Shown here piece by piece: positions 1,800 through 28,825 of a stretch of DNA of 35,178 bases. The first letter of the stretch is position 1. Every line of letters starts with the position of its first letter. Under the pieces are notes generated by a model, which made no database searches, was not told the DNA's origin, and saw only the letters and a list, made by a program, of their open reading frames with translations. The position numbers and the translations under genes are program-made. Origin of the DNA: Candidatus Heimdallarchaeota archaeon (GTDB lineage: Archaea; Asgardarchaeota; Heimdallarchaeia; Heimdallarchaeales; Kariarchaeaceae); NCBI GenBank assembly GCA_015523565.1, contig WAKA01000029.1:1-35178 (forward strand), in the 5' to 3' direction.

Positions 1800-2429
1800 T
1801 TATTTTGCGTTTTTTCCAATGAAGGAATAATTTCCCATGAGAAATCCCACTAAAAACCCGAAAATATGGGCAAAAATATTTGTATTTGCACTGGTTGATG
1901 AGAAAATAAGAAAGATAATACCTGCGGCCAGCAGTCGGTTTTTCTCTTCAAGTTTCTTTTTTCTTGCCCAGCCAAGAATTGCCCCCAACATACCAAATAT
2001 AGCGCCAGAAGCACCAAGTTGGAACGAATTTCCAAGAAGGGGAAGGGAAAGAAGGCTGGAAGCAAGACCAGAAACAAAATAAATGAGGAAAATGTCCTTG
2101 TCAGAGAACTTGTGGTCTTCCAGATAAAAGCCATAAATGATAAGGAACAGTGCATTTCCAAAGAGATGAGCTAGGTCGGCATGAAGGAAAAGAGATGTTA
2201 TTGGTGTCCAAATAAACCCCTTTTGCAATGTTTGGGAGGACAAACCAAAAAGAAGTATTGGGAATTCAGGCATCTGGAAAAGATTCATGGATGGTTCAAG
2301 ATCATTCAGATATGCCCATAAACCAATAAAATACGCAAATAGATAGAATAAAAAATTTGCAAACAAGAGCTTTCCTGTTGCCCGTTTCAATTCATCAATG
2401 GAAAATGCATCGGTCTTAGTTTCTTCCAT
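1800..2429 (-). CDS. Rhomboid family intramembrane serine protease
   Basis: Six-helix membrane protein of 209 residues that should cleave transmembrane substrates within the bilayer. The rhomboid signature is complete: H88 and N92 in HLFGN (HxxxN, oxyanion side), the catalytic serine S141 in GASG, and the catalytic histidine H188 in FAHIFGFLVG. Helices run through about residues 20-40, 75-100, 113-130, 140-155, 165-178 and 185-205, with a lysine-rich loop after helix 4. I start at the ATG at 2429; a GTG two codons upstream is also open. A TATA-like stretch (ttatatta, near 2454-2462) lies about 25-33 nt upstream. It is transcribed away from aspS. The substrates are unknown. Confidence 0.85.
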   Translation of the reverse strand: MEETKTDAFSIDELKRATGKLLFANFLFYLFAYFIGLWAYLNDLEPSMNLFQMPEFPILLFGLSSQTLQKGFIWTPITSLFLHADLAHLFGNALFLIIYGFYLEDHKFSDKDIFLIYFVSGLASSLLSLPLLGNSFQLGASGAIFGMLGAILGWARKKKLEEKNRLLAAGIIFLIFSSTSANTNIFAHIFGFLVGFLMGNYSFIGKNAK

Positions 2430-2490
2430 GGGCACAATTATTACAAATTAACCAATAATATAACTTAATTGTATTGAAACACGACCGATC

Positions 2491-3818: not shown

Positions 3819-4742
3819 TTATTGAGTCAGGACTTCACATCCATTTTCCTTGACAATGATTGTATGCTCAAACTGTGACACATTTGCATTTGGATTTCTT
3901 TCGACAAGCACAGGATAACCCATAATTATTCCAGCTCTAAGCAATTTTCTCAAATCCTTCATGATTGTCTCCTTGTCATTGTTTTCCTTGTCATAAAGGA
4001 AACGGGGTGAGAAGGGGAGTACGCCAACAGTCTTGAAATACTTGGCGAGGATTTTTGCATGTTCCACTTCTTTTTTCTTGGGTTTTCTGACAACCCTGAA
4101 AATATTTGTGCGTTTGCCATTGATTACTTCACCAACCCCATCGGTGGCGAATGGCTCTATTGCATACACCTTTCCTTTTTGTAATCTTCCTTTTATTAAT
4201 TCGAGAAATTTTGATCCATGATTCGGGATGGTTTGACCTGCGTGAAGGACATAACGTTTGATTTGGTGACCAGACAGGTTCCTGATGGGTTCATATCCCG
4301 CAGAAGTGATTGTTTTCTCGATGACTGCACCAACTTCCATTACTTTGACACCATCTTTCACAATTGAGAGAGCCGCTTCAAGAGCTTCGTTTGCCACTTT
4401 TACAAGTTCGTTGTATTGTGGATTGAAGTTTATTGTTATTGCGGTATCAACAATATATCCATCCACATGAGCACCTAAATCCACCTTGATGGTGTCATTC
4501 TTTCCGACAGTTCTAGAATCATTGATTTCAGGGGAATAATGAGCTGCTTCGTTGTTGATGGAAAAGTTCAGTGGAAAAGAGGGTTTTGCACCTTCTTTTC
4601 TGATAAATCCCTCTATTTCCTCTGCAATCTGAAATGCATTTTTTCCAGGCCTAATGGTTTTTTCAGCGATTCTTTTAGCTTCAATTGATATCCTTCCAGC
4701 TTCCCTATATTTTGAAAGAATTTCTTTTGCCTTACTTTCCAT
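3819..4742 (-). CDS. map: Methionine aminopeptidase, type 2
   Basis: Removes the initiator methionine from nascent proteins; a cytosolic dinuclear metalloprotease. Its 307 residues carry the type 2 insertion domain (about 160-250), which marks archaeal and eukaryotic MetAP2. Metal ligands and catalytic histidines are visible: H68 in AAHYSPE, D88 in KVDLGAH, D99 in YIVDTAI, H159 in SGHQIKRYVLH, H167, E196 in AIEPFAT and E292 in QFEHTI. It lies one base beyond the aspS stop in convergent orientation. Upstream, on the same strand, the first subtilase gene ends 40 nt before the ATG, so cotranscription is possible, although this is a housekeeping gene. Confidence 0.95.
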   Translation of the reverse strand: MESKAKEILSKYREAGRISIEAKRIAEKTIRPGKNAFQIAEEIEGFIRKEGAKPSFPLNFSINNEAAHYSPEINDSRTVGKNDTIKVDLGAHVDGYIVDTAITINFNPQYNELVKVANEALEAALSIVKDGVKVMEVGAVIEKTITSAGYEPIRNLSGHQIKRYVLHAGQTIPNHGSKFLELIKGRLQKGKVYAIEPFATDGVGEVINGKRTNIFRVVRKPKKKEVEHAKILAKYFKTVGVLPFSPRFLYDKENNDKETIMKDLRKLLRAGIIMGYPVLVERNPNANVSQFEHTIIVKENGCEVLTQ

Positions 4743-4782: not shown

Positions 4783-7755
4783 TCAAGTTTCTTTTCCCTC
4801 AACCAAGTTTTTCAATTCTCTTCCTCCTTCGTTTTTAATCCAAATAACCCAACTTGTCATCAAAAAGAAGAGGATTGTAATGGCAAACAGATCATGGGTT
4901 TTTTGTTGGTTATAGTTTGCCAGTACACCAATTATTTCAGTATATCCATTTGTAAATTGATCTCCATAATAGATTGGGATAAACATGCTATACTTTCCAG
5001 CAAAGTATATGGTTAGTTTCGTTGAATATTCACCATCAACAAGTGTGAAATTAATTTCTGAGATGAATGTAGGTTCATCATTATGGATGAGATATCCTTT
5101 AAGTACAGATGGCAACTGAATAGGAGTACCATTTGAAAATGTAGGGGTTGAAAAGGAAATTGTAAAATTCTTGTAGAGTTCGACATTTATTTCTTCCCTT
5201 GTTTGTAATTTGATATTGTTAACCTTTATTGGAACCTTTATGATCTGATTTTGGATTAGCCATTCAAAAGTATCAATAGCAACATCCTGTGGGATTTCAG
5301 GATCATCAGTGAAAACTGGATTGAAACTGTTTCTTATCATGCCATATCTGAGAACTGGATAAATGAATGGGAGAACGGACGAATAAACAATGACACGTCC
5401 TTTACCGACTTCCTGAGCGGCGGCAATGGGTCTACCATTAAATTCACCCAAAGTGACAACATCATCTCCAAGAATATCCAAATACGGGCCAGTAGTAGGA
5501 AGGGGAGCTTGTTCAGGAAGCACAGTCTGAAATCTCAATGTTTTTCCAACAACATCATATTGAATGCCATAGTCTGGTTTACCATCATTGTTGCTATCTT
5601 TGTTTAACCTGATTCCAATTTGTTGATTGTTTAGATTTAATCTAAAAATTGCATTTAACGAGTCAATGGCAAATGGACCCATAGGACCATATTCTGTTTC
5701 ATATGATCCACCATGAGCCAATACAAGTAATCCACCTCCCAACTCATCAACAAACTTTCGGATAGCTGTATTTTCATCTGCAGAATAATCAACATCAGGG
5801 TCTGCAATGACAAGGATATTGTATTGTTTCAAAAGATTGAGAGTTAAAGACTTATTCTGAAAATCTACAATAAACCCCTTGTCCCGTAGAAGAACATTCA
5901 GGAAAATAAATTTTCCAGTAGGGCCATCATTCAAGAAATAATCTCCGAGGGTGTCTGCATCTTTGGAGATATCAAAAAGAATTTTTCCTCGAGGAAAGCG
6001 GGAAATGCTAAAAACAGAGATATTTGCATATTTCATGGGTTGTAGGGATTGTCCGTCGAGGAAATAAATTTCAGCTTTTACATATTCAACCTTCTTACTG
6101 GTGACCGTAAGATTTATGGGTACGATATTACTCCCCTGTTGAAGTTTTACAAATGTCGGCAAACCAATTTCTATATTACCGAAGTATTTTCTGTATTTAG
6201 GAACAATGGTCAAGTTTTCATCTGAGAAAACAGTAATATTGAAATAACGAGTTTCATTGATGATTGATGCGCGATAATAAAGATTAGATTCAAATCTAAC
6301 TGGATTTCCCTGATCGTCGAACTCCCTTCCATCATGGATTGCAAGGGGAGAAACAGTTACCCTTTCCAATTGAGCATTCTTTGTATTATTATACTTGTTA
6401 TAGAGTATCTCATAAGCTCTTGTGAAATTGACCACACCTCTCCCTTGCCTTTCAACAGCCATTCCCAAATCATTGGCACCAGCCAGGATTGCATGCTTGA
6501 TTTCAATTGCAGTGGCATTTGGAAAGGCCTGACGTAGAAGTAAAGCGCCTGCAGACACTATAGGAGTAGCCATAGAGGTTCCACTCCTGACAACGGGCTC
6601 AGCTGTTTCTGTATTGACTGAGACAATATTTACACCTGGTGCCAGAACATCTGGCTTGTTTAACCTTGAATAAGGTATGGAAGGACCATTGGCAGAAAAA
6701 TCCCAAATGGTTTGTGCATCCAACAATGCTCCAACACTGAGAACATTTTCCAATGCAGCAGGCATTCCCACAGTGCTTCCCCCTTCGTCACCATCATTAC
6801 CTGCCGCAACAACAGCAAGTATATCTTTTTTAGCCACTTTGTTTATGATTTCCGTGAACAAATCAGAAGACCCGTTATAGTTATTGGATCCAAAGCTCAT
6901 TGAGATAACTGAAACATTTAAGGTTGTAGCAAAGTCAATTCCCATTAACACATCAAGATTATTCCCGATACCATTTGAGTCCAGAACACGAATGGATTTG
7001 AAATTAGCCATGGGAGCCATTCCATGACTCTTTGTAAGCTTGAATGAATTATCGAGATAATAATAACCATTTCCGACTGCAATGCCCGCTACATGTGTTC
7101 CATGTCCAGATGGATCTTGTGTAGTATTTTCAGCAGGATTTTGCTTAAGGCTTCCAATAACATAAAATTCACCACGGCTTTTACTTAGATTAAACATGTC
7201 GTTGAAGCTGATCAAATTACTGATTCCTGAATCTACTATTGCAATTGATTGATTTTGACCATAATATCCCATTTTCCAAAGTGGTTCAATAGAAACCCAA
7301 TCCTTTACTTTTTCCAAAGTATTGAATGCCACTTCTTTTGACAATGACCTAGCGTTTTGCCAAGGGTCATTGACCTGTCTTTGATAGTAAGTGACTTGAG
7401 AGGGGATAACTTTCTTGACAGTACGGAATTGGGATGCATCAACATTTTCATTAACAGTGATGGCTGGAACTAAATTGAATACATATTCGACATCATCCCC
7501 CAATAGATCAAGTGCATGATTTCTTTCTTCAAATGAATTGAACCATAGAATTTTCTTGGTTCCTAAAAAACTTTGCAATTCGTGCTTTTTATTCGTTGGA
7601 TAATTGAGGGTTAAACCCCTTGCATCATTTTTTTGCACTATAGGTACGGGATTACTTGGAGATGCTTGATTTTCCGAAAAATCAAGGAAAGGGGCTACCA
7701 TTGGACTTGTCATAACAAGAATAAGGCAGAAGGACAAAAGCATAATGGATCGCAT
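4783..7755 (-). CDS. Membrane-anchored S8 subtilase with site-1-protease-like architecture
   Basis: Secreted serine protease of about 990 residues (numbering here from a GTG three codons upstream; the ATG at 7755 is the likelier start). It has an N-terminal signal peptide (1-25) and a propeptide region (about 55-130). The S8 catalytic domain (155-455) carries D178 in IAIVDSGI, H221 in GHGTHVAG, oxyanion N323 in AAGND and nucleophile S397 in GTSMATP. A Rossmann-like module follows (about 593-800), beginning KILFDIS and containing KQYNILVIADPDVDY, like the region after the protease domain in eukaryotic MBTPS1 (S1P). A DxNxDG calcium-type loop (723-731) lies inside it. A beta domain (855-950) leads to one transmembrane helix (about 958-975) and a short charged tail. 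The protease would face outside the cell. Confidence 0.88.
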   Translation of the reverse strand: MRSIMLLSFCLILVMTSPMVAPFLDFSENQASPSNPVPIVQKNDARGLTLNYPTNKKHELQSFLGTKKILWFNSFEERNHALDLLGDDVEYVFNLVPAITVNENVDASQFRTVKKVIPSQVTYYQRQVNDPWQNARSLSKEVAFNTLEKVKDWVSIEPLWKMGYYGQNQSIAIVDSGISNLISFNDMFNLSKSRGEFYVIGSLKQNPAENTTQDPSGHGTHVAGIAVGNGYYYLDNSFKLTKSHGMAPMANFKSIRVLDSNGIGNNLDVLMGIDFATTLNVSVISMSFGSNNYNGSSDLFTEIINKVAKKDILAVVAAGNDGDEGGSTVGMPAALENVLSVGALLDAQTIWDFSANGPSIPYSRLNKPDVLAPGVNIVSVNTETAEPVVRSGTSMATPIVSAGALLLRQAFPNATAIEIKHAILAGANDLGMAVERQGRGVVNFTRAYEILYNKYNNTKNAQLERVTVSPLAIHDGREFDDQGNPVRFESNLYYRASIINETRYFNITVFSDENLTIVPKYRKYFGNIEIGLPTFVKLQQGSNIVPINLTVTSKKVEYVKAEIYFLDGQSLQPMKYANISVFSISRFPRGKILFDISKDADTLGDYFLNDGPTGKFIFLNVLLRDKGFIVDFQNKSLTLNLLKQYNILVIADPDVDYSADENTAIRKFVDELGGGLLVLAHGGSYETEYGPMGPFAIDSLNAIFRLNLNNQQIGIRLNKDSNNDGKPDYGIQYDVVGKTLRFQTVLPEQAPLPTTGPYLDILGDDVVTLGEFNGRPIAAAQEVGKGRVIVYSSVLPFIYPVLRYGMIRNSFNPVFTDDPEIPQDVAIDTFEWLIQNQIIKVPIKVNNIKLQTREEINVELYKNFTISFSTPTFSNGTPIQLPSVLKGYLIHNDEPTFISEINFTLVDGEYSTKLTIYFAGKYSMFIPIYYGDQFTNGYTEIIGVLANYNQQKTHDLFAITILFFLMTSWVIWIKNEGGRELKNLVEGKET

Positions 7756-7776
7756 TACAATCACATATTGAACAAT

Positions 7777-7793
7777 CTGTATTTTAACTGTTA
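7777..7793 (-). promoter_or_regulatory. TATA-like element for the first subtilase
   Basis: Read on the minus strand, the sequence gttaaaatac lies about 25-35 nt upstream of the ATG at 7755, which supports that start over the GTG at 7764. Confidence 0.35.
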
Positions 7794-7876
7794 TCCGATT
7801 GATTCATGAAAATTGCAAGAAAGCTTTCATATTTCATTTTCTTTTGACAACGAAAAGTCAAAGAAAGTGGAAAACA

Positions 7877-7888
7877 GTTTTATTTTTT
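7877..7888 (+). promoter_or_regulatory. TATA-like element for the CheA-like gene
   Basis: An AT-only stretch (gttttatttttt) lies 22-33 nt upstream of the ATG at 7910. A short perfect palindrome, atgatatcat (7898-7907), sits between it and the start codon. Confidence 0.3.
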
Positions 7889-7909
7889 GAAAATCAATGA
7901 TATCATGAT

Positions 7910-8629
7910 ATGTCACAATCGTTTAGCAAGGGTCATTCAGAATTGGTTCAAATTATAGACTATATAAATCAAACAATTCCATTGGTGACAACTGGTTCCA
8001 GAAAAGCAGATGTCAAACAAATGGTAATTACTGTATCAGAACAAATGAAATCAGAAGATTTAAACCAAATCTCACCACATTTTCGACCCTTGGGAACAAC
8101 ATTGAAAATATTAGTGGGCTCCGATTCTCCACTTTTAACGTCAGTTACGTTTCAAGGGTTTCTACTTGAAATGGCTGAGACATTGAGTGAAATCTCCGAA
8201 CTGATAAATTCAGGAGGAATTCCAGATCCGGCAATAATTCAAGACTTAAGAACAAACGGGGAATTCTTGATAAAGCTTGCAGGCAGAATGCTTTATAGGT
8301 ACAAGATTCAGGTCTACTTTGAACCTGATTATGATGCAAAGGTACTAAGGGCATTCATGCTTGCAAAAGACTTGTCAAAAGTTGTAAGATTTCTGAATGT
8401 CACCCCTGATATTTCACAGCAGACAAATCCCAACCTCGACAATGGCATTACATTGGAAGTATTATCTGCATCCAGTCCCCAAGAGTTAAATGATATCGTA
8501 ATGAATGTTCTTTCTGTCGAATCCTGTCAAATATTCATCGAAAGAAAAGAAAGCAATGTCATTTATCTTGATCCACCATATATTCCAGGGTCTGTAGATG
8601 ATAAGATGGAAAAATACCTTAACGAATGA
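7910..8629 (+). CDS. Orphan protein resembling CheA P1-P2 regions, no kinase core
   Basis: A 239-residue soluble protein. Residues about 130-222 follow the pattern of the CheA P2 (CheY-binding, ferredoxin-like) domain: YKIQVYFEPD, then a helix with LRAFMLAKDLSKV, then FLNVTPDI, a variable loop, ITLEVLSASSPQELNDIV and VESCQIFIERK. Residues 1-125 are helical and may be a worn Hpt (P1) bundle; LEMAETLSEISELINSG resembles its later helices, but the phosphorylatable histidine motif (HTLKG) is absent. There is no dimerisation, ATPase or CheW-like domain, and no chemotaxis gene nearby. It may bind a receiver-domain protein. This assignment is by eye and could be wrong; otherwise the protein is unknown. 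It sits divergent from one subtilase and convergent with another. Confidence 0.45.
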   Translation: MSQSFSKGHSELVQIIDYINQTIPLVTTGSRKADVKQMVITVSEQMKSEDLNQISPHFRPLGTTLKILVGSDSPLLTSVTFQGFLLEMAETLSEISELINSGGIPDPAIIQDLRTNGEFLIKLAGRMLYRYKIQVYFEPDYDAKVLRAFMLAKDLSKVVRFLNVTPDISQQTNPNLDNGITLEVLSASSPQELNDIVMNVLSVESCQIFIERKESNVIYLDPPYIPGSVDDKMEKYLNE

Positions 8630-8712
8630 ATTGTCTTTTGGTGAAATTTAATTATTCTATTTTTGAAGTATCAAATATTCTTTTTTAGAAATGTATTACA
8701 GATTTTCCCTAT
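8630..8712. terminator. T-rich gap between convergent genes
   Basis: The 83-nt gap between two convergent stops carries plus-strand T-runs (ctatttttg near 8658-8666 and attcttttttag near 8678-8689). Runs like these can end archaeal transcripts without a hairpin. No stem-loop was evident. Confidence 0.3.
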
Positions 8713-11700
8713 TTAGCTTTTGGATTTTTTTGATATCTTTCTTTTAAGAACAAAAGCAGAAGCGAACAGGGCAAGCACAAAGAACTGAGATATGGGTGAT
8801 GGGGATGAACTTGCCTCAGATGAAGTTACAGAAGAAGTTTCTGAAGTTGTTTCTGAAGTTGTTTGATTTGTAGGTTGTGATGAAGTAGGTGTACTAGTGA
8901 CTGGTTTTTCACCGATATAGAAGAGCAATGTCACTTTACCTTCATTACCTGCATCATCTTTTGCGATAAAGGTCAAGTTGTGTGTGACAATTGTAGGATC
9001 AACAGCATCCTTTTGCACAATCAATGTTACTTTCGTATCTTCAATAATTCTGGATACCTCTGATACGGGACGTTCAGTTCCATCCAAAATTACCGTAAGA
9101 TCGGAATAAGTGACCTTATAAGTTGAGTCAACCACTTCAAATTCGAACTTATAGACATACAAATCTTCTCCGAACACAGTTTCATTCTCTGTTAGGGGAG
9201 TAATTGTTGGTCCAAGAAGATTCAATGTCATTGTAAATCTAAGATAGTCATCGGCAGTTGTGACTTGAATATTGTGAACCCCATCCTCTGTAGCATTGTA
9301 TACCAATCTAAACCGACCGTTTCCAAGATCAGTCAATGGAATGTCTTGGGCAGGAATAGAGGTTTGCAACCTTCTTGCAGATACTTGTGTTGATGGACTT
9401 CCATTGTCATAGACTGAAAACTCGGCAACAAGTTGATCATCGGTAATATTCATGCTTTCAAGGGAAACACGATTGTTTTCCAAAAACCATTTATATGCAT
9501 TTTGAGCAAGGATACGATCGTATGGAGAATATCCTTGTGCCCCAGACGTTCCACCATTGTCTGTCCAGAAGTTGTTATCAGAAATTATTACCCTTCCACC
9601 ACCTATTTGGTCGTAAAGTGCAATTTGGGTCTTGTCCGCGGTTCCTGTTAGATAATACAAAGCCGCATTTTTGCTTTGGGCAACAGAATAATCCAGACTC
9701 AAAAAGTTGCCAAATGTAGTAACAGTTTTTGCAGACCCAACAAATGAGGTTACATTGTATATTGGTTTGATACGTTGATTAGGATCTGCTGTACTTGGAT
9801 CTGTGGAAGTTAAAGCACCAAATTTTCCAATAACCCTGTTAAGTTCAGTGGCATTGGTTCCGACAAGACCAGCATTGGTATCTGTAAACAAACCATTAAA
9901 GGTGAAAAGAAGATTACCTCCATTATCAACATAGTTTTCCAATGCGGTTATTTCACTATCCAAGAAATATTCTCCCTCATATGGAATATTAAAATCTGGA
10001 ATGCCAATTTCAACTGGGTCAGGAATCCATACAATATCATACCTTGATAAGAGGTCTGAAGTAATTTCCTCGTCAAATTCCTCAACCCAAACACCTTGAT
10101 CCATTGCCAGATCGATCATTCCGCCAGTATTTGTACCTCCAATTCGATCAGATCCAGAATCGTCCCAATCGGTATGGCGAAGGTCGAAGCCCATGATGGC
10201 ACGAGCAGGACCTGTAATTTCATAAGTAATTGAAATTTCAATCTTTTGATTATCTAACTGCACAATCAAGAAACCCGAATAAGAACCGACTGATGCACCA
10301 GTTGAATTCAGATATAAAGGAATTTCTTGAGAGTATGCATTGTTATCCCATGCAGTCTGATTAAAGAAGAGGATATCTGCCAATGATCCGTTGACAGAAA
10401 CAGAAACTTCAGCAGGATGGGAGGAGACAACCGTATATCCGTTAATTGGGGTGACAATGTCAGAAAGGTAGTTTGACCTGAATAGTCGATCATGGAGTGG
10501 AGTGACGGCAAGAGCCTTTGCAGTTCCATTTTGTGCAATGTTCATAAGATAGGTATATGAATTATAGATATTTACAAAACCCATCCCATAATCATAATTT
10601 CCACCGTCAGTTCCCTCTGCACCACGAAGTAAAGCAGCTTTTAGGGTTCCCATGTTCCATGTAATGTTGTTGGCATTAAGTGCGCTTGCCAAAGTAGCCA
10701 AAGCGCCTGAGGTGACAGGAGTTGAAAAGCTTGTCCCATCAACATAACCGAACAAATCACCAGGGTAGGTGGCGGTATAGACATTCTGTCCAGGTGCAAC
10801 CACATCAGGTTTCAGAATCTTTGAGACAGGGGTGGGACCCCTTGAACTGAAACTTGCAATATTTTTGTTATGATCTGTAGCGCCAACAGCAACAACATCA
10901 ATAAATCCACCAGGGAAACCCACAGTGCCTGGATTTGGACCTTCATTTCCAGCGGCAGCTACAACAAGAATACCTAAGTCTGTAAAAGCCTTGATAAGAG
11001 GACCGTTTGAAGGGAATGGTCCACCCAATGACAAGCTCAAAATGTCAATGGTCTGATTATATTCAAGCATTTTATTATATGCATTAAGTAAATCGTTTGG
11101 ATCAATTCCACCACTGCTTGTGGTTGGTAATGCAACAGAATAAATCGAAGCGTTCACAGCAGAACCGTATGCGTTAGGGTCTACGGAACCATCTGTGACG
11201 ATCATCCCTGCTACTGAAGTGCCATGATAGTAGAATTCGCCATTCAATGAGACAAAGACCTGTTCCTTAACTTTTCCTTTCAGGGCAGGGTGGTCAAGAT
11301 AAATACCATTATCGATTATACCAATATTAATTCCAGTTCCATTGTAACCCAAATCATAAAGTTGGGAGACACCCATCATCTGTATATCTTCAAGACCAGT
11401 TAAAGATTGTCCAGGATTTGAGATAGGATTTGGTTTTGGAATGGTGAGGGAATAATCACTCAATGGAAAAACAAAACCATTCCCATAAAGTGTTTTTGCC
11501 ACCTTTATTTGGTTAGAGTCAAGAGGAACAACAACAGCCTTCAAGTTGTCGTAAGATGCCTTTACATCAAATGAAGCCAAAAGGTCTTTATATTCCTCTT
11601 TTGATTGAGCAAAAATCACATAATCAGTTTTGACGGATTTAGACTGACTAGTTAACTTTGCATCCCCAACATTCAAAGGAACCTTTGTATTTGAGGATAC

Positions 11701-11781
11701 ATTGTTTGCGTTTATTGCCACAAGAGATGTAAACATCACTGTGAGCAAAAAGAGAGTGAACCATCTGTTATGATTCTTCAT
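8713..11781 (-). CDS. Large secreted S8 subtilase with C-terminal membrane anchor
   Basis: A 1022-residue extracellular serine protease. It has a signal peptide (about 1-26), an inhibitor-I9-like propeptide (50-112, beginning TDYVIFAQSKEEYKDLL) and an S8 domain (130-415) with D157 in GIIDNGI, H186 in YHGTSVAG, N279 in AAAGNEG and S351 in DGTSFSTP. A Rossmann-like module (about 528-780), again like the post-catalytic region of site-1 protease, includes LLSRYDIVWIPDP and GGGRVIISDNN. Ig-like beta domains follow. A Ser/Thr/Pro-rich stalk (about 965-995, repeating TSET/SSE) leads to one hydrophobic helix and a basic tail KRKISKKSKS, so the protein is cell-surface bound. A TATA-like site lies 23-34 nt upstream of the ATG. 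It shares its layout with the other subtilase but differs in the anchor. Confidence 0.88.
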   Translation of the reverse strand: MKNHNRWFTLFLLTVMFTSLVAINANNVSSNTKVPLNVGDAKLTSQSKSVKTDYVIFAQSKEEYKDLLASFDVKASYDNLKAVVVPLDSNQIKVAKTLYGNGFVFPLSDYSLTIPKPNPISNPGQSLTGLEDIQMMGVSQLYDLGYNGTGINIGIIDNGIYLDHPALKGKVKEQVFVSLNGEFYYHGTSVAGMIVTDGSVDPNAYGSAVNASIYSVALPTTSSGGIDPNDLLNAYNKMLEYNQTIDILSLSLGGPFPSNGPLIKAFTDLGILVVAAAGNEGPNPGTVGFPGGFIDVVAVGATDHNKNIASFSSRGPTPVSKILKPDVVAPGQNVYTATYPGDLFGYVDGTSFSTPVTSGALATLASALNANNITWNMGTLKAALLRGAEGTDGGNYDYGMGFVNIYNSYTYLMNIAQNGTAKALAVTPLHDRLFRSNYLSDIVTPINGYTVVSSHPAEVSVSVNGSLADILFFNQTAWDNNAYSQEIPLYLNSTGASVGSYSGFLIVQLDNQKIEISITYEITGPARAIMGFDLRHTDWDDSGSDRIGGTNTGGMIDLAMDQGVWVEEFDEEITSDLLSRYDIVWIPDPVEIGIPDFNIPYEGEYFLDSEITALENYVDNGGNLLFTFNGLFTDTNAGLVGTNATELNRVIGKFGALTSTDPSTADPNQRIKPIYNVTSFVGSAKTVTTFGNFLSLDYSVAQSKNAALYYLTGTADKTQIALYDQIGGGRVIISDNNFWTDNGGTSGAQGYSPYDRILAQNAYKWFLENNRVSLESMNITDDQLVAEFSVYDNGSPSTQVSARRLQTSIPAQDIPLTDLGNGRFRLVYNATEDGVHNIQVTTADDYLRFTMTLNLLGPTITPLTENETVFGEDLYVYKFEFEVVDSTYKVTYSDLTVILDGTERPVSEVSRIIEDTKVTLIVQKDAVDPTIVTHNLTFIAKDDAGNEGKVTLLFYIGEKPVTSTPTSSQPTNQTTSETTSETSSVTSSEASSSPSPISQFFVLALFASAFVLKRKISKKSKS

Positions 11782-19055: not shown

Positions 19056-22000
19056 CTACCAACGTGGCATTGCTCTGTATGAACTGATAAGTGTACCCAA
19101 TTCATCAACGAAAATCGGATCTTGGGTAACAATGCCATATGCATTCTTATTTTTGAGAGGAGTTGCAAAGAGGAATTCTTCTCCGTCTCTGCTGGCAATA
19201 ATCATATTCAAGGAAGATGCACCGAATCCTTTTGCCTGGAATTTTCGGAATTGAATATTATTGTCAGATGCCTTCATCTTCTCTATTACTTGAGTATCTC
19301 CTGCGGTGTGGGCAGTAGGATCTGTGACTATGGTGACAGAGGTTCTACGATATTCTTCCCAAAGTTTTGGATCTATCCAATCAACAGTTGGAGTGACAAT
19401 TGTCAAATTGCTTCTTGTTCTTGATATCAAAGCATTAAGATCGGCAATCAGTGCCTCTCTTGTTGCGTCTACATAAGTAGCCTCTACAGTTTTTGGCTCA
19501 AATGCTTGGGCACCTTCTGAAATTTGTCTTAATAGATTCATTGCCTTGCCTGCGGCATCCAATGTTTCAGAAATAACTGAAGGGATTTTTCCAATTGTAT
19601 CTGAAATTTCTTTTCTTCCTGCATTCACAGATTGTTCAAGTTCATTTGTCAAGGTTTGTCCAAACTTTGAAACTTGACCTTTGAGAGTTGTCATAGTTTG
19701 TTCTATTTGGTTATTGACTTCATCAACATGGGATTTGAATCTGTCATTCATGGATCCAAGATCCTTACTTAAACCATCATCAACAATTTTTTCATAGTTT
19801 GCGACGGATTGTCTCAATTGTTGTTCATAAGCAAGAAGATCCTGTGTATTTTTATCAATCAATTGTACTATTTGATCAGACACATCCTTTGATGCCTTTG
19901 AGATGTCATTTTTTGCTTGTGAAACTGCATTGAGGATCAGGTTCTCAACCGTTGCCTGCATATTTGATACGGCACCATTGATTTCCGTTTGAAGGTCATT
20001 TGTTTGCCCTAAAACGAATTGGGATACAGAATCAACGAAACCTACCAATTCATCGATTTGGGCATTGAGTGTGGAAATGAGATTGTCATAATAGGTTCCA
20101 TTGAAATTGGCAATTGAATTTTTGTATTCTTGAAGCCTATTTGCCATTGATTCATTCAATTGTGATTTCAGTGCTTCAATACTGTCCATGAATGACTTGA
20201 AATCATTCACCAATGCATTAGTGACCTCAATAATCTCTTTTGAGGTGGAAACAGCATCCTTGAAGATGCCTCCAACCTTCTTGGATTCAGCATCTGCAAT
20301 TTTCTTGGTATCCTTTTCAAAATTCTTGTCAAGCTTTTCTGCTTGTTTCTTAATATCAATTAATGGCTTTCCTACATCATTGTTCATTGATTTGGCAGAT
20401 GCGTCAATTGCTTTTTCCGCTTTGTCAAATGATTGGGAAAGGTTTGCCAAGGTCTTTTTCAGGTTTTCCTCTTGTGCACTTTTTGCTTGCTCTAAAGTAG
20501 AGGAAAGTGAAGTATTAGTCTCCTCCCTGATTTTTTCCAGTCCCTGATTGAATTCCTCAAATTTGTCTGCAATTTCCTTAAGCCGCGTGTCCGTATCTTG
20601 TTTGAGATTGGTTGTCTCAGTTTGAACACCTTCCTCAATTTCGCGGATTCGTTCGGAGATAATTTTTTCAAGATTTTCAGAGGTTGAATCAGAATGTTTT
20701 TTCAACTGTTCCTTGGTATTTGAGACAACATCAGCAAGGGCAGACCCCATAGTTTCAGAAAATTCATTCATGACAGAAAGTTGCTTTTCCAAGGTTTCCT
20801 TATAGTCTGAAAGGAATTGAGTCTTAATGTTGTTTGTATCTTCCAATGCGGTTGCAACGCTTGAATCCACTTGGGAGTGGGCATTAGTGAAATGAGTGTC
20901 CGCTGTTTCAACAAATTTGTGGAAGGCTTTATCCAATAGGGAAATCAAATTCTCCTGCGCTGCAAGGACGATGTTTTCTTGGGTGTTTGCATCTATACCT
21001 TTTGCAAGGAATTCAGCCTTCCCTATCAAAGACAAGAGAGGTTCACTGAATGTGTTGGCCAGCTCATTTTTCACTTTGTCTTCCATTTCATTTAAAAGTT
21101 CATTGCTTGAACTTGTTATTGAATTTAGAAATGTGGTATGGGATTTATGAACTTCTTGACCCAATTCATTCAATATTGAGCTTAACCTTTCGGTATGGTC
21201 GTTTACGAGCCCTTCTACTTTTTCGACTTCATCTTGAACAGTTTTGCTCAAGGAAGACAAGACTTCCTCTTGGGTGGTTTCTGTATCTTCAGTTGCATTG
21301 CGAAGCATTGTTGCCAGATTTTGGGATAGTTTTTCATAATCTGACATTAACTTCTTATGTTCTTCCAGCTTTTGAATCACAAAATCTTTCTTACCAAACA
21401 TACCCTTGGTATTTTGTTCCAATGCACTCTTCAAATCCAAGAGCATTTTCTGGGATTTAGCTTGATATACTTCGAATTCTCTTTTGAGATTTGATAGTTG
21501 GTCGTGATGGTCATTGAATATTCTTTCAATCTCTTGAGGGAGTTCTTCTCTAATAGTGACAATGTTCAGTTCAAAGTCAGACTTGAACTTATTCAATTCA
21601 TCCTTATTTTTTGAGGAGATTGAGTTCAGGTCATTGTCAAAGGTTTTTAGTCCTGTTTCAGTTTCTTCCTTGAATTTTTTCAAGCTTTCATTTTTTACAT
21701 TCCCTATTGTGGAACTGAAGCTGGAGATAAGTTTTTCACGTGATGCGTTTGCATCAATTTGAAGCTTTTCAGCTTCAGATTTGAAAAGATCCATCTGAGC
21801 TTTTTGTCGGGAAATAACATCTTCCCTTGCAGACTTCATTTCTTGAAAACCAGAATTGATTGCTGTTTCAAATGTATTCTTGGAATTAGAAAGGTCATTG
21901 GAAAGCCTATCCTTCATTTGATTGAGATACTGGGTAATTTTTGTGTGAAATTCGTTTAATTTGTTTTCTGCAACTGTTGCCGCATTTTCAGCTTTTTCTT

Positions 22001-23489
22001 TTGCATCATTGACAAATTCTTCTCTGTCTTGGGTTGCTTTGTCCTCAATTTCGTTCAAGGAATCTGTTACACCAGAATTTAAGGTGTTCATCGCCTCATT
22101 GATTTCACTTTTTGTTTCGTTCAGGAAATTTGTTATGAAATTTTGCAAGGAAGTTAATTCCTTAGTAATGTGTTCAACAGAATTGTTTGAGGCTTCTGTC
22201 AATTGATCTCTGAAGTTGTTGTTATTGGTTTGTACCTCATTGAATTTTTCTTTCAATGTGTCTTGTAATTGGGTATTGAGCTTTTCCAAATCCTTGTCAA
22301 GCTCATTCTTGTTTCCACGGAGGGATTTTTCGATATTTGAATTTGCAGACTTCAGTTCTGACTTTGTCTGGTTCAATATTTTTGACAGCCCTTCCACAGA
22401 TGTTTTTTGGGTTTCATCAATAGCCTTAACCAGTTCTGATTTTATGTTTTGAACATTTTTTGCCAATGATGAATGCAAGTTTGCAATGGCTGATTTTGTG
22501 ATTTCAACAGCTTGTTTTTCTGCATTCTTTGCCTTGTTGTCAATTTCCTTGGTTCCTTCGTTTAAGGATTTCACAGTATTTGAATGGCTTTCCTTGAGGG
22601 ATTCGTGAAATGAGTCAAAGTCTGTTTGTGTTTTTGTGACATAATCTGATGAAAATGTTTCAATTTCATTTGTTAACTGGTCTGATAATGTTTTTGAGTT
22701 ATTATGCAATGTTTGCCTCATTGTTTCCAAATTGGATTTGTTAGGTTCAGCCATACCCTCAATTGCTTGATCAACAACAGTGACCCTCGCATTGACAGTC
22801 ATTCCCAATTCAGTTGCATAATCGATAATTTCTGTTTTCATTTCGTCATTTGTCGTATCAAGCTTGGTTCTATGCGTTTCAATTAGTGTATCTATAGAAG
22901 TGACAGTATTGTTTTTAGTTTCTTGCAGTAACGAGCTTTCTTTGTTCAGATCGTCGGCAATATTTTGAATTGGAGGGATAACTGCCTGCTTTATGTTGCT
23001 AGCAAGATTTTCAGACAGTTTATTGATTGATTCACGTTCCTGATGTGCAAGCTTCAGGAATTTATCTTTTTCCTCTTGATTGATTTGGTCAAGAGACTGA
23101 TTGAAACTAGAAATGGAATTGTCCTTTTCATCTATAAATTTGGTCTTGAATTGGAGTATTTGCTTTTCGGAATCTGACCATATCTGATTTACCTTTTCTC
23201 CAATTTCTCCAAGCTTATTTGACAACCTAGAACTGACGTCCGCCCCCAAAGCAATTTTTGGTGCTTCAGGGATGTATATTTTTGCATTTTCTCCTTTGAC
23301 TGCCAATGACTTTACATATCCTTTGCTTTCCAAGTTGTTCAGGGAATTTTTTACATCCTCAATGGAAACGTCATCCAAGTATGCCGCGACTTGTCCTGCT
23401 GTTCTGAAACCAAATGCAACAAGAACCTCATAGGCTTTTGCATCCAGTTCAGAAAATCCAAGAGTAATTAGATCATCAGAAAGAGCCAT
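19056..23489 (-). CDS. Giant coiled-coil protein with TrmB-type N- and C-terminal domains
   Basis: A 1477-residue cytosolic protein in three parts. Residues 1-80 form a TrmB-family winged helix: DDLITLGFSELDAKAYEVLV, TAGQVAAYLDD, then the recognition region VKNSLNNLESKGYVKSL. Residues about 90-1330 are almost entirely Glu/Lys/Asn/Ser/Leu-rich coiled coil with few prolines, no cysteine and no membrane helix; a continuous rod of this length would be about 180 nm. Residues 1335-1477 resemble the PLD-like effector domain of TrmB regulators (ALISRTRSNLTIVTPTVDW, FLFATPLKNKNAYGIVTQDP), without HKD nuclease motifs. Ordinary TrmB regulators are about 250-350 residues, so a rod has been inserted between the two halves. 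It is last of a packed operon, 2 nt after the preceding stop, with a strong Shine-Dalgarno site. It may tether DNA to another structure, or it may use a TrmB fold for protein contacts. Confidence 0.85.
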   Translation of the reverse strand: MALSDDLITLGFSELDAKAYEVLVAFGFRTAGQVAAYLDDVSIEDVKNSLNNLESKGYVKSLAVKGENAKIYIPEAPKIALGADVSSRLSNKLGEIGEKVNQIWSDSEKQILQFKTKFIDEKDNSISSFNQSLDQINQEEKDKFLKLAHQERESINKLSENLASNIKQAVIPPIQNIADDLNKESSLLQETKNNTVTSIDTLIETHRTKLDTTNDEMKTEIIDYATELGMTVNARVTVVDQAIEGMAEPNKSNLETMRQTLHNNSKTLSDQLTNEIETFSSDYVTKTQTDFDSFHESLKESHSNTVKSLNEGTKEIDNKAKNAEKQAVEITKSAIANLHSSLAKNVQNIKSELVKAIDETQKTSVEGLSKILNQTKSELKSANSNIEKSLRGNKNELDKDLEKLNTQLQDTLKEKFNEVQTNNNNFRDQLTEASNNSVEHITKELTSLQNFITNFLNETKSEINEAMNTLNSGVTDSLNEIEDKATQDREEFVNDAKEKAENAATVAENKLNEFHTKITQYLNQMKDRLSNDLSNSKNTFETAINSGFQEMKSAREDVISRQKAQMDLFKSEAEKLQIDANASREKLISSFSSTIGNVKNESLKKFKEETETGLKTFDNDLNSISSKNKDELNKFKSDFELNIVTIREELPQEIERIFNDHHDQLSNLKREFEVYQAKSQKMLLDLKSALEQNTKGMFGKKDFVIQKLEEHKKLMSDYEKLSQNLATMLRNATEDTETTQEEVLSSLSKTVQDEVEKVEGLVNDHTERLSSILNELGQEVHKSHTTFLNSITSSSNELLNEMEDKVKNELANTFSEPLLSLIGKAEFLAKGIDANTQENIVLAAQENLISLLDKAFHKFVETADTHFTNAHSQVDSSVATALEDTNNIKTQFLSDYKETLEKQLSVMNEFSETMGSALADVVSNTKEQLKKHSDSTSENLEKIISERIREIEEGVQTETTNLKQDTDTRLKEIADKFEEFNQGLEKIREETNTSLSSTLEQAKSAQEENLKKTLANLSQSFDKAEKAIDASAKSMNNDVGKPLIDIKKQAEKLDKNFEKDTKKIADAESKKVGGIFKDAVSTSKEIIEVTNALVNDFKSFMDSIEALKSQLNESMANRLQEYKNSIANFNGTYYDNLISTLNAQIDELVGFVDSVSQFVLGQTNDLQTEINGAVSNMQATVENLILNAVSQAKNDISKASKDVSDQIVQLIDKNTQDLLAYEQQLRQSVANYEKIVDDGLSKDLGSMNDRFKSHVDEVNNQIEQTMTTLKGQVSKFGQTLTNELEQSVNAGRKEISDTIGKIPSVISETLDAAGKAMNLLRQISEGAQAFEPKTVEATYVDATREALIADLNALISRTRSNLTIVTPTVDWIDPKLWEEYRRTSVTIVTDPTAHTAGDTQVIEKMKASDNNIQFRKFQAKGFGASSLNMIIASRDGEEFLFATPLKNKNAYGIVTQDPIFVDELGTLISSYRAMPRW

Positions 23490-23491
23490 TT

Positions 23492-24805
23492 TTATACCTC
23501 CTTTGTTTCTTTGATGATTTCAGTGACCATATTGTTCACTGATTTTTCGACTTCCTTGAAGTCGCCGTCCACTTCCTTCTTAGTCGATTCAACAGTGCCC
23601 TTCACTACTTCCTTGCTTTCTTCCATCATTTTTTTGATGTCATTGGTTCCTGCATTTAAAATGGCATTGTTGGCATCCAATGTTTCCTTGGAAAGAGCCA
23701 ACGTCATTTCATTGAATTTGTTTAATTCTTGCATTACCAATGTTCTATTTTCTTTTCCAAGTTTTTCAAGTTCCTGTCTCAATGTTGCGAAAGAATCAAT
23801 GATTTCCTTTCTTGCTTCCGAGATTTGTCCATCCATGAATTCAATTGATCCTTGAACCCTTTTTCGCTGTTCCTCATTCAAGCCAGCCAATTCATTCATA
23901 ATGCTTTCCTTTATTTTGTTCATTTCGCCCCTTATTTCTCCGATGGCATTTTGCGTTTTTTCTTTGTGTTTTTCAAGGAGAACAGTCATTTGCTTATTAT
24001 ATGCGTCCACAATTTCTGAAACAGTTTTTTCCATTTGTTCTTCAAATGCAAGAATGGTGTTTTGCAATTCTCCGACTTCTTGGGTAAAGTGTGCATCAAT
24101 TTCATTATGAAGTCGGTGGAGATTGGACTTTAGGTGGCTTAGGGTATCTGTTATTATACTATCCAAGACTTCCTTTGTTTGAACCACACCTTTGTAAACG
24201 TCCTCAACTTTTGTTCCAATTTGGTTTTGAAAATCATTTTTCAGGGATTCAAGAGATTCATTCAATGTTTCCCCATTAATTTCAAGAATTTGCTTAAGTT
24301 CCGTATTGACAGTGGCATCTCGTTCGGCAACAAGGTCAACAGTTTTATTGATGGTTTCTGTTCCAAGTTCATTGATTCTTTGATCATAGTTTCCAACATA
24401 TTCCAAATGGGAATTGACACTGTCCTTGATATTTGAGAGGCTAGTGTCAAGTTGTAAGGCAATTTTTTGCTCGGCATCATCCAATGTTTGTTTTCCATAT
24501 TCTTCCATGTTGGAGATATTCGAGCTCATATCCTCATTCAGACCAGTAGTGGTGTTCTGCAATTCATTTGTGAAGGTTTCCATGCTTTCAGAGACTTTCT
24601 TTGATGTCTCCTCCTTCAATTGGTTCACTCTTTTAGCAGCATTAGTTAGCTGATCATCAGTTTTTCTTTCGATATTTTCCAATGAATCAACGATTCTCTT
24701 TTTTGCAGTTCCTATTTTTGCGTGGACACTGTCCTTAGTTTTGGTAACTGTCGAATTAATAGACTTTAGTTTTTCAATGTATTTGGAATTACTGTCTTCG
24801 CTCAT
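23492..24805 (-). CDS. Coiled-coil protein, 437 residues
   Basis: Unrecognised soluble protein that is nearly all helix. From residue about 5 to 435 it shows heptad-like Leu/Ile/Val spacing with many Glu, Lys, Asn, Thr and Ser; there is no proline-rich break, signal peptide, membrane segment or enzyme motif. Database searches are likely to return spurious hits to chemoreceptors, apolipoproteins or myosin tails because of composition. It is placed between the ATPase (10 nt upstream) and the giant TrmB-coiled-coil gene (2 nt downstream), so it is very probably made with them, and it could pair with the larger rod. The ATG at 24805 has a GAGGGA ribosome-binding site (minus strand) about 7 nt upstream, across the TAG of the ATPase gene. 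Confidence 0.85.
   Translation of the reverse strand: MSEDSNSKYIEKLKSINSTVTKTKDSVHAKIGTAKKRIVDSLENIERKTDDQLTNAAKRVNQLKEETSKKVSESMETFTNELQNTTTGLNEDMSSNISNMEEYGKQTLDDAEQKIALQLDTSLSNIKDSVNSHLEYVGNYDQRINELGTETINKTVDLVAERDATVNTELKQILEINGETLNESLESLKNDFQNQIGTKVEDVYKGVVQTKEVLDSIITDTLSHLKSNLHRLHNEIDAHFTQEVGELQNTILAFEEQMEKTVSEIVDAYNKQMTVLLEKHKEKTQNAIGEIRGEMNKIKESIMNELAGLNEEQRKRVQGSIEFMDGQISEARKEIIDSFATLRQELEKLGKENRTLVMQELNKFNEMTLALSKETLDANNAILNAGTNDIKKMMEESKEVVKGTVESTKKEVDGDFKEVEKSVNNMVTEIIKETKEV
23496..23501 (-). promoter_or_regulatory. Strong Shine-Dalgarno site of the giant coiled-coil gene
   Basis: Minus-strand GGAGGT, preceded by AAA, lies 6 nt upstream of the ATG at 23489 and within the last codons of the preceding gene. 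It fixes the start and shows leadered translation inside this operon, unlike most genes in the window. Confidence 0.75.
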
Positions 24806-26643: not shown

Positions 26644-28824
26644 TCAGATTGCTATGCTTAAGTTATCCCTTACTCCTGCAAGAGGATAATTGGGGTCTAT
26701 TGCAAGGATTGCTGTTTCTGCAATTTTCACCAATTCAGGATTGGGATTGCTTTCAAGTACATTGACCATCCATGAAAGATCTTCTGGCTTGCCTTTTTTG
26801 CCAAGCGCCCAATATGCGGCTTTTTTCACCTCGATATCGGGATTTTTCAGGGCTTCAAGCAATAGCCAACGGGAGTCAGATGTTCCAACCAACCCAAGAC
26901 CCAATAATATTCCAATTAATTTACCACGAGAAATATCTTCCTCCTTGCTCATTTCCAAAAGCTTATCCTCGTTTAGAAGTTCTATCTTACTGGCAAGCAA
27001 AATCACTCCAGAAACCACTTTTTCATGAGGGTGGTCAAATAGACCCTCATACACTTTTTCAAAATCAGTGGAATCAAATTTCTCAACCCACCGGAATGTT
27101 GCGGATCGACCATATTGTCCCAATCCATAAGAAAACTCATTTTCCGCCTTTTCGACAGTTGTTGGCCAGATGGTCAAAAGCAATGGCAGAAAGAATGGGA
27201 AAAATGACCAATGAAATGTTATCGTTGAGGCAGAGGTTGTCCAAATATAGATGTTCATGAAAAGGAGGAAAAAGAAGAAGAAATTAAGCCATTTCCTCCA
27301 GCTTTTCGAGAAGAAATACCCAAGTTTCATTGATCTGGCCCAATAAAATGAAACCATCATAAAAACAAGAAGAGGTATTAAAACCATAAAGATTACATAT
27401 TTGATTTGGTCACTGAAAGACAATCGGTCAAGCTGTCTGTAAGCCGCGGTAATAAAAAGAAGGTACAAATAAAGAAATCCAAAAATTGATGCCAACCTAA
27501 TTCCATTGAAATACCACGGTTCATTTGATTCAAGCATTTCAATGTCTTCTTGAACATCAATTGGATAAAATTCATTCAGATTCTTGACATCCTCAGTGAA
27601 TTTGCCTGCCATTATGAACATTGTTTCCTGGGTTGGTGAAGGAAGTAACATGTAGACAAATGGGAGTACAAATCTGAGAACAATAATAGATACAATGAAA
27701 CCAACTACCAATAAAAGTGGATTTACCGAATTACTCATGAACACTGAGAAAACAATGTCAATCACAAAAAATGCAAATATGACAATTATAAGCCCTTTTT
27801 TCTGGAACTTGAAATCTCGGATGATTGTTTTTAGAACTGGTATTGTTTCTCGATATCCTAGAAGCACAGAAGGTAGTGCCAATAAAATCAAAGAAACTCT
27901 AAGAAACAAGAACAAGGTTTTAACCTGTGAAACGAAATCAGAGCCGAATTGTATAAATTGAATATTGTCCTGAATTATAGAAAGGATGTCAAGAGCCACC
28001 CTTTGAAATACAGAATTTGAGGAAAGAAGGTTCATGACAACAGAAAAGAGCGAAGAACCCCAGAAATTCCGTGTTCTCCACCAGATGATACCAGAGACCA
28101 ATCCCCAAATGAACATCCGTAAGAATACAAAAACATATACATCCCAATCATAGAAAAGTAAGAAGAAGTTGGAAAAAGCAGTTGCTTGAATTATGGCACC
28201 AACCAATATTGCAGTTCCCATGCCCAACTTTGAGACACGTGCAAAGTTTGCAATCAAACCCCTCAGGAGATATTCAATACCAATATAAGTACCAATGAAG
28301 CTTAGAAAAAGAAGAATCTTTTCACGATCCGCCTTGTCGTCAGGACTTATGATATTGTAAATGTTTGCTTGGTAAAAATCAGGGGACGTGGTAATGGATT
28401 GACTTTTGAAAATTACATCCTGCCCTCTTGTTGCAATTATGGTTGTGGAAAGAATGAATTCAAGAAGAAAATAGGTACCAAGAGCCATGATTACATAAAA
28501 AAGAGTTGCCTTCACATTTTTTTTGCGGAGAGGTGGAGAGAGACCAATACCCATTTTTTTTAATTCATATTCAGAACTGACAATTATTAAAATTGGAATA
28601 AGGATTGACATGGAAAGGTATGTATTGACATAAAATTGAATCTGATCAGTTGGCTCCAAAAATAAATTTCCATATTTACCAGTCAAGGCACCGACCATTT
28701 GGTTACCAAAAAGTAACCCAATTGCCAATGACCCAATATATGCAGGAAAATAAACCCCATAAAATAAGTTGAGAAATTTAGGACCAATTGCCTGGTCTAT
28801 TACATATTGGTTTGATTTAGACAT
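26644..28824 (-). CDS. Polytopic membrane protein with degenerate CPBP core and HEAT repeats
   Basis: A 726-residue membrane protein. Residues 15-270 contain about eight helices and resemble the CPBP (CAAX protease/bacteriocin-processing) fold: IEYLLRG (183-189) matches the EExxxR motif with the first Glu replaced by Ile, and SLFSVVMNLL (258-267) matches the last motif with its His replaced by Val. The histidine of the middle motif is also missing, so protease activity is doubtful. Further helices run to about residue 570. The last 140 residues are soluble HEAT-type repeats (DIEVKKAAYWALGKKG and similar). The ATG at 28824 is favoured over one at 28863 because GGAGG lies 9 nt upstream and the previous stop is 1 nt away. 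It is translationally tied to the surface-protein gene and precedes the ATPase gene. Confidence 0.75.
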   Translation of the reverse strand: MSKSNQYVIDQAIGPKFLNLFYGVYFPAYIGSLAIGLLFGNQMVGALTGKYGNLFLEPTDQIQFYVNTYLSMSILIPILIIVSSEYELKKMGIGLSPPLRKKNVKATLFYVIMALGTYFLLEFILSTTIIATRGQDVIFKSQSITTSPDFYQANIYNIISPDDKADREKILLFLSFIGTYIGIEYLLRGLIANFARVSKLGMGTAILVGAIIQATAFSNFFLLFYDWDVYVFVFLRMFIWGLVSGIIWWRTRNFWGSSLFSVVMNLLSSNSVFQRVALDILSIIQDNIQFIQFGSDFVSQVKTLFLFLRVSLILLALPSVLLGYRETIPVLKTIIRDFKFQKKGLIIVIFAFFVIDIVFSVFMSNSVNPLLLVVGFIVSIIVLRFVLPFVYMLLPSPTQETMFIMAGKFTEDVKNLNEFYPIDVQEDIEMLESNEPWYFNGIRLASIFGFLYLYLLFITAAYRQLDRLSFSDQIKYVIFMVLIPLLVFMMVSFYWARSMKLGYFFSKSWRKWLNFFFFFLLFMNIYIWTTSASTITFHWSFFPFFLPLLLTIWPTTVEKAENEFSYGLGQYGRSATFRWVEKFDSTDFEKVYEGLFDHPHEKVVSGVILLASKIELLNEDKLLEMSKEEDISRGKLIGILLGLGLVGTSDSRWLLLEALKNPDIEVKKAAYWALGKKGKPEDLSWMVNVLESNPNPELVKIAETAILAIDPNYPLAGVRDNLSIAI

Positions 28825-28825
28825 T

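Follow-up and report, generated by a model that had tools for sequence, protein, structure and literature searches.

The question raised by this locus is whether it bears on the origin of the eukaryotic site-1 protease (S1P; MBTPS1, SKI-1), the enzyme that initiates SREBP and ATF6 signalling. The locus lies in a stretch of 35,178 nucleotides from Candidatus Heimdallarchaeota (contig WAKA01000029.1; hereafter the window), which encodes two large subtilases, P0001 and P0002. A first-pass annotation, made from the letters alone, had proposed that a Rossmann-like unit following the protease domain of both proteins resembles the corresponding region of S1P, and that the pair would be relevant to the origin of that enzyme if the host were an Asgard archaeon. 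The host is indeed a member of the Asgards (Heimdallarchaeia), and no discussion of a prokaryotic source of S1P was found in the literature searched.

Domain organization of P0001 and P0002

Both open reading frames were recovered where the first-pass annotation had placed them, and its description of each as a subtilase with a signal peptide, a propeptide, an intact Asp-His-Asn-Ser S8 domain and a single C-terminal membrane helix was borne out (Table 1). The tetrad residues are invariant in the alignments of the respective proteins. Exactly two membrane segments per protein are predicted from hydropathy (1-19 and 958-976 in P0001; 7-25 and 994-1012 in P0002), by a simple test that calls a C-terminal helix in 41 of 59 longer ORFs. 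The propeptide regions are aligned by phmmer with that of Tk-SP (PDB: 3afg). No other solved S8 sequence scores as high against either protein, the match taking in the propeptide; the 539-aa chain of Tk-SP is aligned over the pro-region and S8 domain only, and lacks the additional α/β domain discussed below. A furin-type P domain was also considered for the region after the S8 domain and dropped, as the furin/kexin (S8B) P-domain model PF01483 had no match in either protein at E 0.1.

Table 1. Features of the two proteases and of neighbouring genes (positions in the window)
Feature	Residues	Position	Strand	Basis and remarks
P0001 gene	1-993	4783..7764	-	993 aa, GTG start; S8 protease containing a GIFT domain, predicted to be secreted and anchored by a C-terminal membrane helix
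P0001 signal peptide	~1-24	7693..7764	-	hydropathy segment 1-19; putative cut site
P0001 propeptide region	~25-158	7291..7692	-	phmmer alignment with ProN-Tk-SP from residue 79; beta-alpha-beta elements in model
P0001 S8 catalytic domain	169-455	6400..7260	-	PF00082 E 7.7e-46; tetrad D178/H221/N323/S397
P0001 beta-strand linker, S1P P-like position	456-588	6001..6399	-	position and hhalign path (pooled profile A1); low model confidence
P0001 GIFT (GATase-like) domain	589-835	5260..6000	-	PF23090 2.2e-5; GIFT HMM 166 bits (P0001 is part of that profile); fold search
P0001 C-terminal membrane helix	957-977	4834..4896	-	hydropathy; model helix 959-979
P0002 gene	1-1022	8713..11781	-	1022 aa; S8 protease containing a GIFT domain, predicted to be secreted and anchored by a C-terminal membrane helix
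P0002 signal peptide	~1-26	11704..11781	-	hydropathy segment 7-25; putative cut site
P0002 propeptide region	27-130	11392..11703	-	phmmer alignment with Tk-SP from residue 73
P0002 S8 catalytic domain	148-411	10549..11340	-	PF00082 E 1.9e-43; tetrad D157/H186/N279/S351
P0002 beta-strand linker, P-like position	412-526	10204..10548	-	position and hhalign path; low model confidence
P0002 GIFT domain	528-767	9481..10200	-	GIFT HMM 165 bits (P0002 is part of that profile); family profile; hhalign; fold search
P0002 C-terminal membrane helix	994-1014	8740..8802	-	hydropathy; preceded by Ser/Thr-rich stalk, followed by basic tail
Rhomboid protease		1800-2435		PF01694 2e-23
M24 peptidase		3819..4742	-	PF00557 9.8e-34
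CheA P2-type domain gene		7910..8629	+	PF07194 4e-10

Identity of the post-catalytic module

The Rossmann-like unit proved to be real and of the S1P type: Pfam, family profiles and hhalign identify it as a GIFT domain, for which solved structures come from human S1P and IFT52, and on sequence criteria the second α/β domain of P0001 and P0002 is a member of this fold group. The GIFT domain of S1P and its oxyanion loop have been described previously (PMC11231238). The Pfam model MBTPS1_4th (PF23090) detected P0001 in hmmscan with an E-value of 2.2e-5 and 24.5 bits, below the 27-bit cut-off, reached 28.9 bits on P0001 with its neighbours in the genome search, and had no hmmscan match in P0002. 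A pooled profile of the linker and GIFT domain of Asgard subtilases retrieved IFT52 (7e-20), S1P (3e-13) and, marginally, OST48 (0.18) from the PDB, and separate profiles of the P0001 and P0002 groups recovered IFT52 with E-values of 2.8e-10 and 1.8e-7 respectively. Comparisons with the S1P module by hhalign gave scores of 51-104, against at most 23 in shuffle controls (30 shuffles each), with a value of 92.5% for P0002 to S1P. The hhalign path also traverses the P-like region of S1P; the structural models of P0001 and P0002 are poor at the corresponding linker, and an HMM of the linker used alone did not match S1P. Other GIFT proteins, namely IFT52, OST48/Wbp1 and GldG, share the module but, unlike P0001 and P0002, lack a protease domain. 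Although the pooled profile scores IFT52 above S1P, the GIFT domain of IFT52 groups weakly with bacterial versions and not with those of P0001 and P0002.

The resemblance to S1P (PDB: 8uw8, 8uwc, 9csd) extends across the protein, with the signal peptide, pro-region, S8 Asp-His-Asn-Ser tetrad, position of the beta-sandwich linker, GIFT domain and single C-terminal membrane helix being shared in the same order and with similar spacing, at ~18-24% identity across the shared region. The median distance from the S8 to the GIFT domain is 123 residues (117-181) in the Asgard proteins versus 149 in S1P, a full-length Asgard profile (A2) aligns residues 200-862 of S1P, and the catalytic tetrad is retained in 103 of 108 Asgard proteins combining both domains. 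In Foldseek searches of 350,542 PDB chains S1P was the top hit of each model (E 2e-28 and 2e-26), with alignments of 752-777 columns and the next entry ~5-6 orders of magnitude behind. The superposition on S1P proposed in the first-pass annotation is itself weak, with models of mean pLDDT 54, TM 0.3-0.4 and rmsd ~14 A. There are also differences. The stretch TTWELPGGYGR, seen in the S8 domain of human S1P, is absent from P0001 and P0002 in alignment A3, and the two are therefore not classed as S1P orthologues. Further, P0002, unlike S1P, has an extra beta region and a Ser/Thr stalk ahead of its anchor, and S1P is characterized by a Golgi location, autocatalytic A and B sites, a substrate motif, binding and control by SPRING, and its SREBP/ATF6 substrates.

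Phyletic distribution of the S8-linker-GIFT architecture

The S8-linker-GIFT architecture is nearly universal in Asgards. A match to the linker plus GIFT profile is present in 220 of 224 Asgard genomes, and the occurrence of the S8 and GIFT domains in one frame was verified in 78; PF23090 alone, which detects 35 of 228, is too weak for measuring distribution. Given this breadth, the locus is one example of the architecture rather than a special ancestor. The concern of the first-pass annotation that the module might be common to many bacterial and archaeal subtilases was not borne out by the non-Asgard phyla tested. Of 80 sampled S8 genes, four are Asgard, and three of these carry a GIFT domain after the S8 domain; none of the 76 others does. 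Inspection of the higher-scoring GIFT loci in 1,088 genomes from five other phyla, TACK not being among them and Bacillota entering through the S8 sample only, turned up a single S8+GIFT protein, a Thermoplasmatota giant with different spacing. With S1P as the sole query, 85,000 genomes yielded no relative, the short search patterns being too specific.

It is unlikely, on these counts, that the architecture predates the Asgards or extends beyond them (for instance, to TACK), or that S1P was transferred from another prokaryote, which would make the occurrence of the architecture in Asgards unspecific: one odd giant aside, it is absent from the inspected loci of the five phyla, as it is from the 76 non-Asgard S8 genes. 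This alternative does draw on the S8 domain of S1P being as similar to some bacterial versions as to those of Asgards, with 37.4% identity in Planctomycetota versus 37.6% for the best Asgard.

As the arrangement occurs in nearly all Asgards searched and is all but missing from the ~1,090 genomes of the five other phyla, we suggest, short of proof, that eukaryotes inherited S1P from their archaeal ancestor via the Asgard family, and not from P0001 or P0002 themselves.

Phylogenetic position of S1P

The trees include one eukaryotic S1P sequence. S1P forms a long branch. In the S8-only tree it lies within an unresolved comb, and the S8+GIFT tree is likewise unresolved; its position shifted with sampling across both, and no placement is claimed. 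Approximately unbiased (AU) tests accepted the union of S1P with the P0001 clade (p 0.52), the P0002 clade (p 0.23), all GIFT proteases (p 0.29) and non-Asgard S8 domains (p 0.34). The S8 phylogeny called for in the first-pass annotation hence fixes S1P neither near to these proteins nor far from them.

P0001 and P0002 each fall in an Asgard-only subclade without S1P, supported at 100/99 and 95/95 in the S8 tree and at 100/98 and 99/97 in the S8+GIFT tree. Direct orthology of either with S1P is allowed by the AU tests, and no protein of the host genome matches S1P better than P0002 (E 1.2e-26); nevertheless, given these subclades and the many other Asgard proteins that score S1P higher, we regard it as very improbable and have dropped it. 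On sequence grounds, the two proteins are members of Asgard-specific subfamilies that are relatives of S1P, with orthology not being claimed. The module, the architecture and the Asgard host thus support the proposed relevance to the origin of S1P in part, but these results do not tie P0001 and P0002 specifically to it.

In the GIFT-only tree S1P branches among the Asgard domains (83/86, not starred) and IFT52 with the bacterial versions, while AU tests reject neither a grouping of the S1P GIFT domain with non-Asgard versions (p 0.19) nor one with IFT52 (p 0.20). The acceptance of separate placements, the age and wide occurrence of both domains, and the Thermoplasmatota giant, whose other spacing implies that the fusion can recur, might point to an independent S8-GIFT fusion in eukaryotes. 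Such convergence has a low probability in our assessment, in view of the position of S1P in the GIFT tree and of the identical domain order, nearly the same spacing, linker position and signal/anchor topology common to S1P and the Asgard proteins. Taken as a whole, P0001 and P0002 are probably exported, anchored subtilases of S1P architecture belonging to a near-pan-Asgard family of which S1P is probably the eukaryotic descendant.

Functional implications

Proteins of this organization would be exported as zymogens, mature by removal of the propeptide and stay tethered outside the membrane, where processing or shedding of other surface proteins is a candidate role. By analogy with human S1P, the GIFT domain may pack against the S8 loops bearing the oxyanion Asn, thereby tuning activity or recruiting substrates that are perhaps glycosylated. 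It is possible, though less likely, that they are instead nutrient-scavenging surface subtilases degrading environmental protein, with the GIFT domain as an accessory that binds, for example, glycans or the cell wall, a functional difference compatible with common descent with S1P. The abundance of S8 genes (24 domain matches) and the four GIFT proteases in the host genome favor such a role, as does the proposal that GIFT domains bind sugars (PMC7226087). However, the membrane anchor and the retention of the family in nearly all of the phylum better suit a housekeeping role, and the catalytic residues are lost in some family members.

The first-pass annotation saw no site-2 protease in the window, and there is no M50 match among the window proteins scanned; an M50 match is present elsewhere in the host genome. 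It is conceivable, if improbable, that S8-P-like-GIFT and M50 proteases already constituted a two-step system of membrane-protein cleavage for surface sensing in an Asgard-related ancestor, from which S1P was inherited and the SREBP/ATF6 pathway relocated from the archaeal surface. The matching architecture of Asgards, so far nearly absent elsewhere, offers a concrete and testable candidate origin for the Golgi enzyme, and the Asgard proteases a means of asking what role such a protease had before the Golgi existed. The S8-linker-GIFT order also adds a domain-architecture marker common to Asgards and eukaryotes.

Genomic neighbourhood

The rhomboid gene reported at 2.3 kb from P0001 lies at a measured 2.35 kb. 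In four further genomes of the family, too, the M24 peptidase gene adjoins the P0001 orthologue. The arrangement with the CheA P2-type domain gene between the two proteases is kept in a congener, L356, in which a 60% identical gene likewise sits between both.

Identification and architecture of the two proteases

The contig (C29) belongs to a draft genome of 3.57 Mb, and its host is indeed an Asgard archaeon, the case in which, according to the first-pass annotation, both subtilases might be informative on the origin of S1P (human MBTPS1); the host shares its class with Candidatus Heimdallarchaeota archaeon S146_22 and SZ_4_bin2.246. The coordinates proposed for the two genes were likewise confirmed. 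Both products are recognized by a strong S8 domain in Pfam scans, preserve all four catalytic positions in alignments, carry a single hydrophobic segment at each end, and have a pro-region alignable to that of the archaeal subtilisin Tk-SP.

Coordinates of the proteases, other genes of the window and two further loci
Feature	Coordinates	Strand	Length (aa)
P0001	4783-7764	-	993
P0002	8713-11781	-	1022
Helical-repeat protein, large	19056-23489		1477
Helical-repeat protein, small	23492-24805		437
HEAT-repeat protein	26644-28863		739
L414, Thermoplasmatota	G704:C19:273500-284500		>2,700
L026, GIFT-like frame	G000:C217:8125-8382		365

The extra unit following the S8 domain was delimited here to residues 589-835 (P0001) and 528-767 (P0002), in agreement with the earlier ranges of 593-800 and 528-780. 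The Pfam model MBTPS1_4th matches P0001 at 2.2e-5, under its curated cut-off, and found no match in P0002. A profile (A1) built on the region after S8 in 17 Asgard proteins, searched against all PDB sequences, recovered IFT52 as the top match (7e-20), followed by residues 614-776 of human S1P (3e-13), with OST48 at 0.18; IFT52 was also found by the P0001-family and P0002-family profiles, each run separately. GIFT domains are present in IFT52 and OST48/Wbp1 (PMC10191852, PMC7226087), and in the human S1P structure residues 617-998 are named the GIFT subdomain, preceded by a P-like sandwich at 479-616 (PMC11231238). The hhalign scores against the S1P module (A1, 104; P0001 family, 51; P0002 family, 55.5) exceed both the best of 30 shuffles per profile (17-23) and the S1P S8 domain used as a negative (10-15). 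On the strength of these profile matches and scores, the extra units of both proteins are assigned as GIFT domains. The proposed resemblance to the post-catalytic module of S1P thus stands, as a likeness to the GIFT superfamily including S1P and not to S1P only.

The resemblance extends over the whole protein, with a full-length Asgard profile (A2) covering S1P from 200 to 862 as a single continuous alignment. In Foldseek searches of 350,542 PDB chains, the S1P ectodomain takes both ranks 1 and 2 for each of the P0001 and P0002 models (E = 2e-28 and 2e-26; next-best entries, 6e-22 and 4e-21). As S1P is the sole S8+GIFT protein surfacing in the PDB searches, this rank supports shared architecture rather than descent. 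The models derive from shallow alignments (15 sequences, mean pLDDT 54), being good in the S8 domain, fair in the GIFT core and poor in the linker, and their superposition on S1P is loose (TM 0.3-0.4, rmsd 13-15 A).

Phyletic distribution of the S8-GIFT architecture

Of 80 S8 genes sampled across many phyla, 4 are Asgard, and a GIFT domain comes after S8 in 3 of these; none of the 76 non-Asgard genes has this arrangement. The A1 profile matches 220/224 Asgard genomes at E-values of 1e-12 or better, and an S8 domain in frame with the match was verified for each of the 30 best Asgard loci and in 78 distinct genomes overall. Being built from Asgard proteins, A1 is less sensitive outside the Asgards, yet it picks up human S1P and IFT52. 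GIFT matches are frequent elsewhere, both at 1e-3 (Halobacteriota, 90/247 genomes; Chloroflexota, 49/201) and at 1e-8 (Thermoplasmatota, 31/243; Planctomycetota, 23/199; Bacteroidota, 33/198). Among the matches listed for five non-Asgard phyla, up to 30 per search, none has S8 in the GIFT frame except one Thermoplasmatota giant, L414 (S8, 168-469; GIFT, 883-1060). This protein has two GIFT matches, and its S8-GIFT gap of 414 is unlike the spacing of 123 (117-181) in 108 Asgard proteins; that of S1P is 149.

In some Asgard S8-GIFT proteins (L384, L391 and L409) the tetrad reads DHDA or DHDL; having lost catalytic residues, they may be pseudoproteases.

Our literature searches, which covered few subscription papers so that an earlier description is possible, found no paper pairing site-1 protease with Asgard or subtilase with Heimdallarchaeia, and, judged by title, none on S1P-like Asgard subtilases under MBTPS1 and archaea.

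Phylogenetic relationships

A tree of 87 S8 domains assigns P0001 and P0002 to different clades, both well supported (100/99 and 95/95); S1P, the one eukaryotic S1P sequence in our trees, lies in an unresolved comb with an end branch of 2.07. The suspected link of S1P to either protein hence lacks tree support. The nearest rows to S1P by path are Asgard GIFT proteases; by identity, one Planctomycetota protein is equally near. Adding the linker and GIFT columns left its position without resolution, and AU tests rejected neither S1P with the P0001 clade (p = 0.52), the P0002 clade (0.23), all GIFT proteases (0.29) or non-Asgard S8s (0.34), nor all GIFT proteases without S1P (0.26). In the GIFT-only tree S1P lies within an otherwise all-Asgard group (83/86); neither its placement with IFT52 (0.20) nor with all non-Asgard GIFTs (0.19) was rejected. 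The case for descent is therefore one of shared architecture and distribution.

In the same tree the IFT52 GIFT groups weakly with Chloroflexota and other bacterial GIFTs, apart from the Asgard S8-linked GIFTs. This grouping gives a hint that S1P and IFT52, the two GIFT proteins of eukaryotes, had different sources.

Functional considerations and genomic context

In human S1P, the loops supporting the oxyanion Asn carry the packed GIFT subdomain, which SPRING stabilises (PMC11231238). By analogy, P0001 and P0002 would be GIFT-controlled, membrane-tethered processing proteases at the archaeal surface; the main rival function is nutrient proteolysis.

An M50 (site-2 type) peptidase has one match in the host genome and occurs in 193/201 Asgard genomes and in all 14 control genomes, so its presence says little on an S1P-S2P pathway. 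Several genomes of the order have two adjacent GIFT proteases, and a congener has the CheA-P2-type gene flanked by the P0001-P0002 pair, as in the window. In four other genomes of the family, the P0001 orthologue has an M24 peptidase gene next to it, the orientation of which varies.

Elsewhere in the host genome, the open frame L026 lacks S8 and has a GIFT-like domain (68.7 bits), and contigs C165 (L009) and C72 (L015) hold two GIFT proteases besides P0001 and P0002. Within the window, the two helical-repeat proteins match apolipoprotein-type repeats, the larger beginning with a TrmB-type helix-turn-helix, and the HEAT-repeat protein shows a weak Rce1-like CAAX-protease match.
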